Positions 1-4,948 of a stretch of 64,000 bases of DNA are shown here, one piece after another (the stretch's first letter is position 1; every line of letters starts with the position of its first letter). Below the pieces are notes generated by a model that worked only from the letters and a program-made list of their open reading frames with translations, was not told where the DNA came from and did no database searches. Where the stretch lies: the NCBI GenBank assembly GCA_947502635.1, contig CANNAN010000004.1, positions 372,001 through 436,000 on the forward strand, read 5' to 3'. Both the position numbers and the translations under genes were made by a program. This stretch comes from an uncultured Flavobacteriaceae bacterium. Its GTDB lineage: Bacteria > Bacteroidota > Bacteroidia > Flavobacteriales > Flavobacteriaceae.

Positions 1-560
1 TGGTAGTCATCTTTTGGTTTTCTATGGTGCAATTTCCTTGCTATTGTAGAGTTAGCACCATCTGCACCAACAATTAGTTTTGTTTTAAGGGAAAAGGTTT
101 TCTTTGCATCTTTTAATTGTACTAAAGCCGAGTGAGAAGAAATCGAATAACTTATAACGCGTGTACCTTGTATATAGGATGCGCCAGCTTTTTTTGCTGC
201 TTCAAAAATCCAATTATCTAGTTCCAATCGAGGAATGATTCTGGCATGAAAAGGAAGACTATCTGGTTTCGAAAGATTAATAAAAGCATTACTATTTTTT
301 AAAAACAAGCCTACCCTTTTTATCTCATTTGCTTTTTTGAATTTTTGGGTTCCTGTAATGCCCATTTTTTCTAATTCTGCAAGCGCTATCGGACTCACCC
401 CATCACCACAAATTTTATCCCTTGGAAAAACACAGGCTTCCACTACAATGACTTTAATTCCTTTTGAAGCCAAATGATAAGCTAATCCACTTCCTGCAGG
501 TCCGCCGCCAACAATAAGCACATCACAATCATAATCTATTTTTGGTTTAACTGTTATCAT
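1..560 (-). CDS. FAD-dependent oxidoreductase, geranylgeranyl-reductase-like (partial, C-terminus outside window)
   Basis: The ATG lies at 560 on the minus strand and the frame stays open to base 1, so about 186 residues are visible and the C-terminus is missing. Near the N-terminus (residues about 14-19) is the dinucleotide-binding GGGPAG motif, followed at about 50 by the ICGDGVSP stretch typical of geranylgeranyl reductase/halogenase-type flavoproteins, and further on by a VGADGANS motif that contacts FAD. Members of this family saturate double bonds of geranylgeranyl chains or oxidise similar hydrophobic substrates. It starts 4 bp after the stop of the polyprenyl synthase gene and is therefore probably the last visible gene of the operon starting at 4948. 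Pairing with a prenyl diphosphate synthase favours an isoprenoid substrate (inference); a different substrate cannot be excluded from the part seen. Confidence 0.8.
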   Translation of the reverse strand, partial: MITVKPKIDYDCDVLIVGGGPAGSGLAYHLASKGIKVIVVEACVFPRDKICGDGVSPIALAELEKMGITGTQKFKKANEIKRVGLFLKNSNAFINLSKPDSLPFHARIIPRLELDNWIFEAAKKAGASYIQGTRVISYSISSHSALVQLKDAKKTFSLKTKLIVGADGANSTIARKLHHRKPKDDY

Positions 561-564
561 ATTT

Positions 565-1593
565 TTAATAGTCCCTATTAATCATATAAAGGATAATACT
601 TTCTATGAGTTTTTTATCTTTAGTTTCTGGTAGTCTGGAAAAGATCGTATAGAATTCCTTTAATGCGCCACCAGCTAAATATTTTGATGTTTTTTTTGCA
701 TAATCTATAGATTGATAATCTTTCATTAAATGCAAAATACGAATAGCGTCTTCTTGCTTTCTTTCTTTGATAGGTAATGAGAGAAATTTTTTGACCATTT
801 TAAACTCTGAAGCCTTGCAATTTTCTAACAGATGAATAAGCATGAGCGTTCTTTTTCCTTCGATAATATCACCACATATTTCTTTACCATATTTATCCTC
901 GTTAGCCACTAAATTCAATACGTCATCTTGTATTTGGAATGAGGTTCCCATAAAATAGCCTAATCGATTAAAAATATCAGGATTTATTTTACCCTTAGTT
1001 CCTATAATGGCACCAATTCTTATGGGATGGATACATGTATACCAACATGTTTTTTTAAGTATCATCTGTAAATAATCCTTTTCTTTTAAATTACAAACAT
1101 TGTCTTTTCTCCATCCTAATTCCATGGCTTGTCCTTCTACAGACTCTAAAACTAAATGTTGAATTTCTGAATAAATACTTAAGGATACTTTATCTCCTAA
1201 AGTTTGGCGGTTTTTTAACAAAGGCTGTAATGCCAAAGCTTGCATAGCATCTCCAATATTTATAGCAATGGCATTTGTATTCATTTCATGAAGCGTAGGT
1301 TTCCCTCTTCTTATATAACTTTCGTCCTCACAATCATCATGAACAAGAAAAGCATTGTGAAGTAACTCTAAGCAAATGGCAGAATTGCTAGCATCCTCCT
1401 TCTTGCCTCCATATGCTACACAAGCAGCTATACATAATCCTGGTCTAAAACCTTTGCCGCCTCGATTAGGATAATCTGAAATAAGATTATAAAGGTATTT
1501 TTTGGGTTCTTTGTCTGGAATATAATTATGAATACCTTTTAGCGTTTCTGCGCCATAATCGGCAAGCATAGATTTCATAAAAAGATCTTCCAT
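565..1593 (-). CDS. Polyprenyl (geranylgeranyl/farnesyl-type) diphosphate synthase
   Basis: This 342-residue protein has the usual length for a trans-isoprenyl diphosphate synthase, which condenses isopentenyl diphosphate onto an allylic diphosphate in the cytoplasm. The first aspartate-rich motif is visible as VHDDCEDESYIRRGKPTLH (about residues 84-102), with the arginines that bind pyrophosphate. The second motif reads QIQDDVLNL, so the last aspartate of the classical DDxxD is an asparagine. That variant is familiar from eukaryotic-type geranylgeranyl diphosphate synthases. Chain length cannot be decided by eye. The gene sits 3 bp after the phasin-like gene at 1597 and 4 bp before the reductase, so it is translated within the same operon as the Ig-like proteins. 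Confidence 0.9.
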   Translation of the reverse strand: MEDLFMKSMLADYGAETLKGIHNYIPDKEPKKYLYNLISDYPNRGGKGFRPGLCIAACVAYGGKKEDASNSAICLELLHNAFLVHDDCEDESYIRRGKPTLHEMNTNAIAINIGDAMQALALQPLLKNRQTLGDKVSLSIYSEIQHLVLESVEGQAMELGWRKDNVCNLKEKDYLQMILKKTCWYTCIHPIRIGAIIGTKGKINPDIFNRLGYFMGTSFQIQDDVLNLVANEDKYGKEICGDIIEGKRTLMLIHLLENCKASEFKMVKKFLSLPIKERKQEDAIRILHLMKDYQSIDYAKKTSKYLAGGALKEFYTIFSRLPETKDKKLIESIILYMINRDY

Positions 1594-1596
1594 CGT

Positions 1597-2286
1597 TTAT
1601 ATGACTTCGATTTTAAGAAGAACATTAATAATATTGTCATTGGCATCAGATATAAACGCATTATAATTTCCAGGTAATGCATTTTTAGGGAGTTTTAATT
1701 GAATACTAATTTCTTTTTCTTCCTTAGGTTTTAAATTAAAGTTTTTAGGAATGACTTTTAAAGCTCTTGAATTTATAATTCGGTTATTTGGTCCTATCAA
1801 ATGGGATTTTTGAAGCTTCATTTTTGTTAATTTTTCTGAATCCTCAAAAAGTGTAAATTTAAAAACTTCTAATTGTCCTGGTTTTAAGGGCTGTTCTGTT
1901 TCTAAAAGTGTTACTGTACTCTCCCTTTTTGTTTCTGAAACGGGTTTCTCTTTGGAATTGGTTTCTTTATCGACAGAAGATGCCAGATTACCAACTTGTT
2001 TTGAAATCGCTGAGAGTGCATCTAAAAAAAGATCTACAGCTTCATGCGTATCTCTTCTTATGCGATTCATTAAATCATCTGGATCACTCCTAATGTCCTC
2101 TACATCTATAATTTTTTTTTCAATTTTTTTTGCTGCTAATATTCCAGCTGCTATCTCCTCTTCAAGGACATTTACAGCAGAATTTACTACTTTCTGAGCA
2201 CCAGATAGTAGCTCTTCATTTTTTATAGCATTTAAAAAATCGTCGGTTAGTGTTTTTCTAAACGGCTCTTTTTTTTTATTGCTCAT
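1597..2286 (-). CDS. Hypothetical protein: helical phasin-like N-terminus plus C-terminal Ig-like beta domain
   Basis: The 229-residue protein has no signal peptide or membrane segment. Residues 1-105 are rich in Lys, Glu, Ala and Leu with heptad-like spacing and should form long amphipathic helices. A charged Ser/Thr/Glu linker follows (about 105-125). The last 100 residues look like an Ig-like sandwich of the kind found in NEW3 or CARDB-type domains, with the hallmark LKPKEEKEISIQLKLP and then LPGNY. It overlaps the upstream gene by 11 bp, which suggests translational coupling. Together with the 222- and 227-residue neighbours it forms a trio of the same architecture. A granule-coat or scaffold role is inference; I do not recognise a named family. 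Confidence 0.75.
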   Translation of the reverse strand: MSNKKKEPFRKTLTDDFLNAIKNEELLSGAQKVVNSAVNVLEEEIAAGILAAKKIEKKIIDVEDIRSDPDDLMNRIRRDTHEAVDLFLDALSAISKQVGNLASSVDKETNSKEKPVSETKRESTVTLLETEQPLKPGQLEVFKFTLFEDSEKLTKMKLQKSHLIGPNNRIINSRALKVIPKNFNLKPKEEKEISIQLKLPKNALPGNYNAFISDANDNIINVLLKIEVI

Positions 2287-2944
2287 CTGCCGAAGTTTTA
2301 ATAGGTTTTTTTATGACATTCAAATTAATAAGAAAATGAGCAGGTTCAAAACCTAATACTTGAACTTTACTTTGATAATTTCCAGGTTCTACCTTCGCTC
2401 CTATATTTACTTTTATTTTAATGGTTTGTGACTCGCCAGGATTTAGATTAAACGATTGTGGAGTAAATGTCGTTTTAAAATTATACGTATCATTAGGGTC
2501 ACCACTTTCTTTAATAAACTCGAAATTTTCCAAAGTACAAATGGCTTCCTCTTCTTTTGTATTATCTAATACAAACTGGAGCAGTGCGCTACTACCAATA
2601 AAAACAGTTTCTGTTAAAACAAAAGCAGGTTCAGTTATGTTTTCTTCTTGGGCAATATCATGGTCATTACTTGCTTCAAAATCACTATTTATAATTTTTT
2701 TAGAAAATTCAAAACCTAGATCAACCATATTTTTATAATGATTTAAATTAAGCTTAGCAAATGCTGTAAATGCTCCAGCAACTAGTTCTGGCTGAAACGG
2801 ATTGATCGTTTTTTTTTGCTTATTTGAATTACTTAATTGACTAACTAAATTGGATCCTTCTTTGAAATATTGTGTATTAATTTCTATCGTCTTTTTTAGA
2901 ATGCCTTCAAGATCTTTAGCAATATTATCTTGCTCTTGACTCAT
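2276..2944 (-). CDS. Hypothetical protein, phasin-like helical region plus Ig-like domain
   Basis: The 222 residues lack a signal peptide. The N-terminal half contains an amphipathic helical segment with HYKNMVDLGFEFSKKII at about residues 69-85, which resembles the repeating helices of phasins and other lipid-granule surface proteins (a resemblance by eye only). Residues about 105-210 form a predicted beta sandwich with LNPGESQTIKIKV followed by EPGNYQSKV, the same pattern as in the neighbouring genes. The gene starts 14 bp after the 227-residue gene and its end overlaps the next gene by 11 bp. It is a paralogue-like partner in the operon rather than a clear copy, because the N-terminal sequences differ. 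Confidence 0.75.
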   Translation of the reverse strand: MSQEQDNIAKDLEGILKKTIEINTQYFKEGSNLVSQLSNSNKQKKTINPFQPELVAGAFTAFAKLNLNHYKNMVDLGFEFSKKIINSDFEASNDHDIAQEENITEPAFVLTETVFIGSSALLQFVLDNTKEEEAICTLENFEFIKESGDPNDTYNFKTTFTPQSFNLNPGESQTIKIKVNIGAKVEPGNYQSKVQVLGFEPAHFLINLNVIKKPIKTSADEQ

Positions 2945-2958
2945 ATTATTATTTGATA

Positions 2959-3642
2959 TTAAGATTTATTTTGGAGTACATCTGGTCTAACATCAACCCC
3001 TTTTTTATGTGGATCACAATAAAAATGAGATTGCCAATTAAGCCATTTTTGCTTGTACTTTTTTTCATCATTTGGAGCAACCTCTGTTAGTCTTGAATTA
3101 TTTACGTGAAGTGTGAAACAGATGTTTTGATTGATTTCTTTCTCTCTTAAAACAATTTCCGTTACATATGTACTTCCTGTATTAAATTTATTTAAATCTA
3201 AGGACATTAAAACGCTTTCGCTTCTTCCTGGTTGTAAGGTTACAGATGCTTTATTCAAGATAGGTTGATTTGGTGCTATTGTACCATCATTATCCACTAA
3301 TTCTCGAACACCAACACGATATGTTTTTGTAGAAGAACAGTTGTTTTTTACCAAAATAGGAACAATAATGCGTTCGCCACTCATAGCCTGTCTGGAAATT
3401 GCAGAAATACAATGCGGAGGGCATTCTTGTTTAGGTGGACAACAGTTACTGTTTTTAGTATTTTGAAAAGAAGATAAGTTTAATGTTGGTATTTTCCCTT
3501 CTAAAACCGCATTATTCATGTTTGAAACTGTTTCAAACATATTTTCAACTAATGGTTTCATGGCATCAATAGATAACTTTGACATTTTCTGAAAGTTATC
3601 GGTAAGGGTTTTCTGTAAAGATGATTCACTTTGTTTTTCCAT
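2959..3642 (-). CDS. Hypothetical protein: helical N-terminus, Cys/Pro-rich hinge, Ig-like domain
   Basis: This 227-residue protein has three visible parts. Residues 1-60 are helical, with SLQKTLTDNF close to the RKTLTDDF start of the 229-residue neighbour. A hinge at about residues 67-78 reads CCPPKQECPPHC. From about 85 to 180 there is an Ig-like domain with VPILVKNN and LQPGRSESVLMSLDL. The tail is basic and aromatic. There is no signal peptide, so the four clustered cysteines are probably in the cytoplasm, where they could bind metal; this is inference. The start overlaps the upstream gene by 17 bp, a sign of coupled translation. Confidence 0.72.
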   Translation of the reverse strand: MEKQSESSLQKTLTDNFQKMSKLSIDAMKPLVENMFETVSNMNNAVLEGKIPTLNLSSFQNTKNSNCCPPKQECPPHCISAISRQAMSGERIIVPILVKNNCSSTKTYRVGVRELVDNDGTIAPNQPILNKASVTLQPGRSESVLMSLDLNKFNTGSTYVTEIVLREKEINQNICFTLHVNNSRLTEVAPNDEKKYKQKWLNWQSHFYCDPHKKGVDVRPDVLQNKS

Positions 3643-4429
3643 GGCCTCTCGTTTTATTTTGTTCTGTATGAGATTTTATAACTATAGAGATTTCTTTATT
3701 CCATAATCTAAAACTTCCATCATAATCATTCTTAGGGTCTGCATTTTTCGGAATTATAAAATTAACATGAAGCACCAAGCAATCTCCAGGTTGAACAATT
3801 TGACCAAATTCATCTACAGAAATAGAAATCCAGTCAATGAGATGGGTTTTAATATTTTTTGATACTTCATCTAGTGTAGACATCAAACCATCAACACCTT
3901 TTTCTCTAAAACCAATTCCAAAAGCTCTACATAATAAATCCATATCTAATAAGGCGCCATGCTTTAAAACAGGAACTTGAAAAGGGATATTTCCAGTATT
4001 AGTAAGTGTTAAAACGGCTGTATGTTTTTTACCAGGTGAACTGTCTAAAAATGTAAACTTATTAGGAAATATCTCAATATCTAATGTAGGTTGCACAATC
4101 ATTTTTACTTTATGCATTTCCTTACCTAACATCATATAGTTTTCATAGGTTCCTGGAGGTGTTGTTGAAGGGAGTTCATGATCTATAGCAGTTAACCTTT
4201 CTTCACCAGGATTTAACCTAATGGCTACTCTTATAAAATCGGCTCCTTTATTACTAAATCTTTTTTTGTTTTTATCTACAAGAGCTAAAGATTTTATCCG
4301 TAATACTTCTTTTTCTTTATTTACAAATTGTACATACCCTCTAAGGTCTCCAGGTGACCCATTAAGAATAATTTCTTTTTCTACAATTTTTATTTTTTCC
4401 TGAGAAGTTTCGGAAGTTATAGTAATCAT
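3626..4429 (-). CDS. Hypothetical protein with two tandem Ig-like domains
   Basis: The 267 residues are nearly all predicted beta strand. Two sandwiches can be outlined. Residues about 5-120 contain LNPGEERLTAIDHELP and then PPGTYENYM; residues about 120-250 contain LTLTNTGNIPFQVPV and VQPGDCLVLHVNFIIP. The pattern of a PG turn followed by a strand ending in PxxY recurs in the three following gene products, but here the helical N-terminal part is missing. No signal peptide is visible. It ends within the start of the next gene (17 bp overlap). A structural partner of the helix-containing proteins is the simplest reading. Confidence 0.7.
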   Translation of the reverse strand: MITITSETSQEKIKIVEKEIILNGSPGDLRGYVQFVNKEKEVLRIKSLALVDKNKKRFSNKGADFIRVAIRLNPGEERLTAIDHELPSTTPPGTYENYMMLGKEMHKVKMIVQPTLDIEIFPNKFTFLDSSPGKKHTAVLTLTNTGNIPFQVPVLKHGALLDMDLLCRAFGIGFREKGVDGLMSTLDEVSKNIKTHLIDWISISVDEFGQIVQPGDCLVLHVNFIIPKNADPKNDYDGSFRLWNKEISIVIKSHTEQNKTRGHGKTK

Positions 4430-4456
4430 AAAGCCTTAAATTTTTAGTACTATTTA

Positions 4457-4948
4457 TTATTTACTAGCAGAAGTCGTTCTCTTAGTTTTCGACTTAGGAA
4501 AAGGTCTGGTATCTGGTTCGCAACAATCGTCCTTGCATTGTTCTGCTTCATTAGGGACATAAGGCTCTGTTATAATTTGACTTTCTCCCCCCATACAGAC
4601 ACTCATTAATTCTACACCAAGTACTTTTAAACATACATTAGAATAATTTGGAATTCTTACCCGTACTTTCATTAAATCTTTAATATCTTTTAATGTAAAT
4701 CGAGGTAGGTTTAAAATTTCTATTTTACTGTCTGTACTTACTGGCTCTTTTGGATCGCCTGTTAACTTTAAAACATTATCAGTTGCTAAATTACCACTCA
4801 CTTTTGTTTCTATAGCGCCTCCATGAACAGCATTAAAAGCACCAGATAAACGTGTATCTAATCCGCCTTCAATATTGGAATCTATGTCAAATATTCCCTT
4901 CGGTTTTATATTGTGAGTAAAGTTTGTTGGAATTGATGGTACACTCAT
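4457..4948 (-). CDS. Hypothetical protein, first gene of the Ig-like/isoprenoid operon
   Basis: The 163-residue product has no signal peptide, no membrane helix and no family I can name. The N-terminal 100 residues alternate hydrophobic and polar residues with many Gly and Asn (GGLDTRLSGAFNAVHGG), as in a beta-rich or lipid-associated domain. The C-terminus carries a CKDDCCEP cysteine cluster and a Lys/Thr-rich basic tail. The gene is the first of the operon and follows a 507-bp gap that must contain the promoter. Cysteine clusters appear both here and in the 227-residue protein of the same operon, which may mean a shared metal or disulphide chemistry (inference). Confidence 0.65.
   Translation of the reverse strand: MSVPSIPTNFTHNIKPKGIFDIDSNIEGGLDTRLSGAFNAVHGGAIETKVSGNLATDNVLKLTGDPKEPVSTDSKIEILNLPRFTLKDIKDLMKVRVRIPNYSNVCLKVLGVELMSVCMGGESQIITEPYVPNEAEQCKDDCCEPDTRPFPKSKTKRTTSASK

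Follow-up and report, generated by a model that had tools for sequence, protein, structure and literature searches.

What brings five small proteins without a known role together with two enzymes of isoprenoid metabolism is the question raised by a seven-gene operon at the left edge of the DNA analysed here. This DNA, hereafter the window, is a 64 kb stretch (positions 372001-436000 of contig C4) from the 5.44 Mb genome of an uncultured Flavobacteriaceae bacterium. The operon occupies window positions 1-4948 on the minus strand and is transcribed in the order A-B-C-D-E-PPS-GGR, in which A to E are the small proteins, four of them with a predicted immunoglobulin-like (Ig) domain, PPS is a trans-prenyl diphosphate synthase and GGR a predicted flavoprotein of the geranylgeranyl reductase family. 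We assign a probability of about one half to the reading that this operon encodes a dedicated pathway for a reduced prenyl lipid, together with an intracellular scaffold or coat of its own. Literature searches, in which the coverage of subscription papers and preprints was slight, found no description of the operon.

A conserved seven-gene operon

The coordinates of the open reading frames (ORFs) confirmed the seven tightly packed genes recognised in the initial annotation of this DNA, including the overlaps of 17 bp between B (3626..4429) and C (2959..3642) and of 11 bp between D (2276..2944) and E (1597..2286). Gene A (4457..4948) stands first, with no ORF of 60 residues or more in the ~500 bases upstream of it, and PPS (565..1593) follows E. 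GGR is cut by the edge of the window, its 186 N-terminal codons lying inside (1..560) and the whole gene of 492 amino acids (aa; L005:11082-12560) ending past it. It had also been suggested that the left edge may hide more genes of the set; this holds for the remainder of GGR, which finishes beyond base 1, but not for any further gene. The next gene listed to the left is a plus-strand response regulator, and because this neighbour is convergent GGR is regarded as the last gene of the operon.

Relatives were collected by scanning the genome collection with a PPS profile and two peptide patterns, KKTCWYT among them; this gave 112 relatives, of which the 80 best were retained. Together with the window locus and three further relatives these make up 84 loci, which sample the surroundings of this operon and are no census; the presence of KKTCWYT in 81 of the 84 tree rows is circular, since the pattern was used in the scan. 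L058 and L087, which have stops inside the matched span, were left out of the trees, and ORF calling missed the PPS frame in five of the 84 loci (L058, L060, L085, L086 and L087). The loci were sorted into four cluster types (I to IV), which are our own labels, type I being that of the window operon and type IV a mixed remainder of 13 loci. Clustering of the neighbouring genes by iterated profiles was rejected, as it merged B to E through their common Ig domain and took up antisense ORFs in GC-rich loci.

In 19 of the 84 loci PPS is preceded by all of A to E in unchanged order, and each of these 19 has a strong GGR. Judged by record title or kinship, they include members of the Flavobacteriaceae, Weeksellaceae, Crocinitomicaceae, Chitinophagaceae and Fulvivirgaceae and a Dyadobacter, the full order thus spanning at least five families of Bacteroidota; two more loci (L021 and L026) are cut by contig ends. 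The spacing between PPS and GGR is -4 to +38 bases in 18 loci and that between E and PPS is -14 to +68 bases in 16 of 17 (303 in the other), some of the called starts being over-long. Ratios of nonsynonymous to synonymous substitution rates (dN/dS), calculated against L015 and L016, were 0.00-0.28 for the seven genes, which indicates purifying selection. The set exceeds chance because its order is kept in these 19 loci, always with a strong GGR, and because of these dN/dS values. This bears on the most ordinary account of the locus, namely that this is a standard operon for a lipid or quinone and that the five small proteins are hypothetical genes present by chance. The families of PPS and GGR are common and A-E have no assigned role, as that account would have it, but an order conserved under apparent purifying selection in at least five families, with relatives of the Ig proteins beside related PPS genes in many phyla (see below), leaves it very unlikely.

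The initial annotation had coupled the Ig genes to both enzymes, and their co-occurrence in other genomes was checked and found. B was matched in four of 299 genomes of the family, all four with PPS within 4 kb, and the complete order of seven genes is present in two of these genomes besides the window's own. Searches run with A, B, C or E in place of PPS gave no strong match standing by itself (D was searched in the own genome only). A was matched in one of 395 genomes of the phylum and C in one of 395 genomes of the order, in each case the own genome, and the B profile in three of 395, two of these being weak partial matches in frames of more than 1,000 residues. The E profile matched 15 of 395 phylum genomes, its helical part being covered only in the own genome and in G389, where PPS comes directly after the E match. 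The profiles of A-E gave no match in the rest of the window, nor around the genome's two further PPS genes to a distance of 1.5 kb.

On the PPS tree the four cluster types are strongly clustered, requiring 5 changes against 42.2 when shuffled. Type I is not shown to form a single clade (it needs 2 changes, and a single change in 14% of bootstrap trees). Between-family transfer of the type I operon is suggested because Chryseolinea (Fulvivirgaceae) is placed among Flavobacteriaceae within this type, a placement taken from an earlier tree in which the rows of the own-genome paralogues were miscut. Two loci showed peculiarities of their own. In Dyadobacter bucti (L087:10001-11027) PPS is split between two frames in a type I operon that is otherwise complete, by sequencing error or decay, and a few kb from the operon of L011 11 nearly identical frames of 94-116 aa stand in a row (L011:15562-18972), probably a long tandem repeat inside one large gene.

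The two enzymes and the five small proteins

Both enzyme assignments made from the sequence at the outset were upheld by family models. PPS (342 aa) matches PF00348 with an E-value of 2.7e-57 (194.3 bits against a cut-off of 27), the match beginning at residue 32, and its nearest solved sequences are the geranylgeranyl diphosphate synthases 1wmw, which is the nearest, and 1wy0. Like these enzymes and the other trans-prenyl diphosphate synthases of PF00348, it has both Asp-rich motifs, the first being DDCED and the second DDVLN; unlike them, it has a second motif ending in Asn and stands apart from the two further PPS genes of its genome, which lie on other contigs. The form DDxLN is seen in 77 of the 84 tree rows, and the PPS sequences of 82 loci are split from the two own-genome paralogues at 98/99 support, the paralogue rows being long and flagged as unsure. 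The nearest relatives of PPS come from an uncultured member of the Flavobacteriaceae (97%) and Arcticiflavibacter luteus (89%). Ahead of the first Asp-rich motif there is Ala at -5 and Phe at -4 in 76 of the 84 tree rows. By a chain-length rule that is assumed to hold for PPS, these preceding residues suggest an all-trans prenyl diphosphate of probably ~C20 or somewhat longer.

The full-length GGR passes TIGR02032 (GG-red-SF) with 203.3 bits against a cut-off of 158.8 and scores 27.6 bits on the GGR_cat model (cut-off 27); its nearest solved sequence is 3oz2. It thus appears to be a flavoprotein of the geranylgeranyl reductase family, an assignment at family level that implies no single substrate, since GGR falls far below the cut-offs of the equivalog models for MenJ, ChlP and the archaeal enzymes. 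A gene of the phytoene/squalene synthase family is present on another contig of the genome.

No Pfam model reached its cut-off in any of the five small proteins of the window. Protein A (163 aa) has a variable N-terminal part and a conserved C-terminal half with Cys, including a near-invariant Cys close to the C-terminus; it gave no Pfam match up to E=1 and, judged from alignments of 3 and 18 relatives, fits no known family. The beta-rich character first ascribed to A is putative, its structure model being of low confidence (pLDDT 50). The remaining four had been described as Ig-like, and this is supported by profile comparison (hhalign) to E, in which D scored 98%, C 93.5% and B 93% over one common domain, and by the structure model of E and its structural matches. 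B to E share one Ig domain. Protein B (267 aa) carries this domain without a signal peptide, C (227 aa) adds to it an N-terminal helical stretch, seen from sequence only, and a Cys cluster (CCPPxxxCPPHC) that is mostly conserved among relatives, and D (222 aa), with a similar N-terminal stretch again read from sequence, has matches to fn3_5, NEW3 and HYDIN-Ig that are all under their cut-offs. A relative of B (L012:8970-9938) carries a helix-hairpin-helix domain (PF12836, E-value 9.7e-18), as the only one of 21 B members. This motif usually binds DNA.

Protein E (229 aa) is modelled as helices at residues 12-59 and 69-107 followed by an Ig sandwich at 124-228 of the ASH/PapD/MSP-like kind. The model has a predicted local distance difference test score (pLDDT) of 74, with the strands of the sandwich mostly near 90. 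Its best solved matches are N-terminal domains of GH123 and the ASH, PapD-like and MSP-type Ig domains. The C-terminal domain of E would thus have the same fold as the domains of CEP192, HYDIN, OCRL1 and MSP, but here it follows long helices in a protein whose gene neighbours that of a prenyl synthase, and identity was 8-19% among the 50 matches listed. Across 30 relatives of E the helix region contains invariant charged residues. The claim that three of the Ig-like proteins have amphipathic helical N-termini stood in part: a helix is seen in the model of E only, and the amphipathicity is modest, the best hydrophobic moments in the helical stretches of E, D and C being equalled by 14-50 of 500 shuffles. 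The PHROGs collection gave one weak match to E (E=0.0076), a protein of unassigned role, and no E was found in the plasmid search.

A simple hydropathy scan, made without a dedicated signal-peptide program, found no signal peptide in A-E. None of their N-termini is strongly hydrophobic, the maximum 12-residue mean in the first 40 residues being 1.55 over 18-19 orthologues of each, against 2.74-3.21 in three neighbouring proteins taken from their sequence to be exported or anchored, and no earlier ATG, GTG or TTG start exists in the window. The earlier statement that the Ig-like proteins have no signal peptide is in agreement with this, both for the proteins of the window and for their orthologues, better starts being absent. 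A-E are apparently non-secreted and intracellular. The same values speak against periplasmic or surface Ig proteins of the adhesin or pilus-chaperone type that share the operon by chance, an explanation which the resemblance of the modelled fold to PapD-like chaperones, among others, would favour and which we consider most improbable.

The helical stretches had led to a comparison with phasins, and membership in that family was not supported. Among 30 E, 13 D, 16 C and 21 B members no phasin model was matched at E<=0.01, and the sole trace was Phasin_2 on D (E=0.1; 13.2 bits against a cut-off of 24.9). PhaC (PF07167) had no match in the own genome; it matched one of 14 control genomes. The phasins of polyhydroxyalkanoate granules (PMC5658603) are likewise small, cytoplasmic proteins with helical stretches, and the one Phasin_2 match is in keeping with this likeness. 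They differ from B-E in that the latter each carry an Ig domain and are linked to prenyl enzymes, in a genome without a PhaC match.

Helix-Ig proteins beside related prenyl synthases

The association of these proteins with PPS extends well beyond the full operon. In 54 of the 84 loci the gene immediately before PPS, on the same strand, encodes an E-like protein, and a GGR at E<1e-50 within 6 kb was found in 41 loci, all of them among these 54 (0 of the 30 others). When the helix-Ig proteins of type III (15 loci) and eight loci of type IV are included, a helix-Ig protein or a relative of A-D is found near PPS in 77 of the 84. The eight type IV loci (L012, L073, L081, L084, L088, L089, L090 and L093) were counted for relatives of A-D or of F32 within ~8 kb, F32 being a small helix-Ig protein family of three sequences which matches D over 149 of 200 columns (97%). 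No such partner was found in seven loci (L069, L080, L085, L086, L091, L092 and L094).

Type II comprises the 33 loci with E outside type I. A protein of ~1,200 residues occurs in 19 of the 33, often there is a 200-residue protein together with small Cys-containing proteins, and some of the clusters stand beside IspH. A relationship between A and the small type II proteins (F12 and F19) was considered and is not supported by profile comparison. The one ~1,200-residue protein that was tested (L030:13241-16966) has PKD domains, a long hydrophobic stretch and a start without a hydrophobic leader; a cytoplasmic PKD protein would be odd. Two type II clusters (L044 and L047) are on contigs titled Bathyarchaeota, by binning error or transfer, and archaea are not counted as carriers.

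Type III consists of 17 loci, many of them myxobacterial by title, and in 15 of the 17 a helix-Ig protein, F18, is directly upstream of PPS. F18 is related to E (hhalign 96%), and its profile also matches 31 of the 54 E-like loci, which is expected of relatives and means that it is not exclusive to this type. Most of these clusters have a flavin adenine dinucleotide enzyme, the one tested being HpnE-like, and often a saccharopine-dehydrogenase-like protein. Type IV has relatives of A, B, C or D together with family F16 (9 of the 13 loci), SCP2 proteins and a methyltransferase. F16 is a putative 'CrtC-like' family, a label that no library match supports. In the Tectomicrobia contig L073 the order PPS-A-B-C-D is consecutive. 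IspH is found within 9 kb of PPS in seven of the 84 loci, and the copies of IspH and SCP2 that were tested pass TIGR00216 and PF02036, respectively; these partner genes fit a role in isoprenoids or lipids. Because a helix-Ig protein or an A-D relative is near PPS in 77 of the 84 loci, with changing partner enzymes, the coupling of Ig proteins to isoprenoid enzymes proposed at the outset is real and wide, reaching across many bacterial phyla.

The most constant parts of these clusters are the special PPS and the upstream helix-Ig protein without an export signal, the variable parts being enzymes acting on prenyl chains or carrying lipids. On the simplest account the helix-Ig protein would bind PPS and, together with the other Ig proteins and A, keep the enzymes and their hydrophobic product in one place in the cytoplasm. 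The main rival explanation is a membrane metabolon, in which helix-Ig adaptors would keep PPS and GGR together at the inner membrane; the reduced prenyl lipid would enter that membrane directly or be attached to a quinone or other acceptor, with neither granule nor coat. The adjacency of E-like proteins to PPS in 54 of the 84 loci and the invariant charged residues of the helices suit such a binding partner. A relative from the Chlorobiaceae (L112:7129-8694) encodes, directly before PPS, a protein of 156 aa whose match to E is confined to the helical part, as if that were the minimal unit, and because this form has the helical part alone the helices may be the essential part of E. On the other hand, no clear membrane segment was seen in the proteins of the window, the highest 19-residue hydropathy mean being 1.69 for D, where it falls within the Ig domain, and 0.82-1.23 for the other four. 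Adaptors of this kind would also leave unexplained why four different Ig proteins and A stay together in 19 of the 84 loci. A metabolon is regarded as a less probable alternative.

A candidate prenyl-lipid pathway with a scaffold or coat

In the preferred reading, that of a dedicated pathway with its own scaffold or coat, PPS would build an all-trans prenyl diphosphate in a pathway separate from the two other prenyl synthases of the genome, and GGR would reduce some or all of the double bonds of this product. The conserved helices of E would bind PPS, and the three proteins that combine a helical stretch with an Ig sandwich (C, D and E) would form together with B and A a scaffold or coat round the enzymes and their hydrophobic product. 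The product of the type I operon would be a reduced prenyl lipid handled in the cytoplasm. The likeliest form of this arrangement is a protein-coated body, in which we infer the body itself, its coat or scaffold, its product and the contact of E with PPS. A bolder version is a bacterial lipid organelle of a new kind, in the form of a reduced or tailored isoprenoid body that is built and coated by cytoplasmic helix-Ig proteins outside the phasin and encapsulin families, recruited by dedicated prenyl synthases and combined, in over ten phyla by record title, with differing tailoring enzymes; it is possible, and we regard it as doubtful.

A number of points weigh against the preferred reading. 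The operon proteins match no phasin or shell family, and the operon showed no enzyme for storage lipids (an acyltransferase, for instance). The invariant charged residues in the helices of E fit a protein-protein contact at least as well as the coating of a lipid. These helices are moderately modelled (pLDDT ~48-83; predicted template modelling score of the E model 0.44), and the model of A is of low confidence (pLDDT 50). In 13 of the 15 phylum genomes matched by the E profile the match covers the Ig part only, the Ig domain alone being unspecific. Several partner enzymes of the other cluster types are weakly recognised, the HpnE-like enzyme of type III reaching 54 bits of a cut-off of 283 and F16 matching tocopherol cyclase at E=0.047 only. 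Nor is the operon a general storage system, since few genomes carry the type I set (B is matched in 4 of the 299 of the family).

The family 2 encapsulins, reportedly found beside polyprenyl transferases (PMC8346489), offer the closest conceptual precedent; there too a prenyl synthase is tied to dedicated structural proteins. A closed protein shell, similar to an encapsulin in function, with A and the Ig proteins as its building blocks and the two enzymes as its cargo, would agree with this precedent and with the retention of several small proteins in a fixed order. However, no HK97 capsid or other shell family is among the Pfam matches of the operon up to E=1, and PPS scores 141.5 bits on the cargo model NF041169, for which the cut-off is 450. 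PPS also lacks the disordered N-terminus of 50-100 residues that is reported for the cargo enzymes (PMC8346489), PF00348 matching from residue 32, and a shell of this kind is unlikely.

As it stands, the operon is an isoprenoid biosynthesis cluster of a known kind with new structural proteins, hinting at an undescribed intracellular isoprenoid-handling system, and it would become a cluster of a new kind if the body were found. If the preferred reading of a pathway with its own scaffold or coat is true, bacteria have a widespread and overlooked way of making and handling isoprenoid lipids inside their cells, in which an Ig fold known mainly from exported proteins has a structural role. The reading would also assign five protein families a role, suggest what an as yet unstudied group of prenyl synthases makes, and supply proteins with which terpenoids could be handled in engineered cells. 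For PPS, a concrete partner candidate is the helix-Ig protein encoded just upstream.

A second tight operon lies on the minus strand to the left of the window (L005:662-9205, corresponding to C4 360662-369205). It consists of two pyridoxal phosphate-dependent decarboxylases alternating with two AMP-binding matches under their cut-off, followed by four small proteins, some of which are alike. These four bring to mind the PixA/AidA inclusion-body proteins, although Pfam gives no such match.

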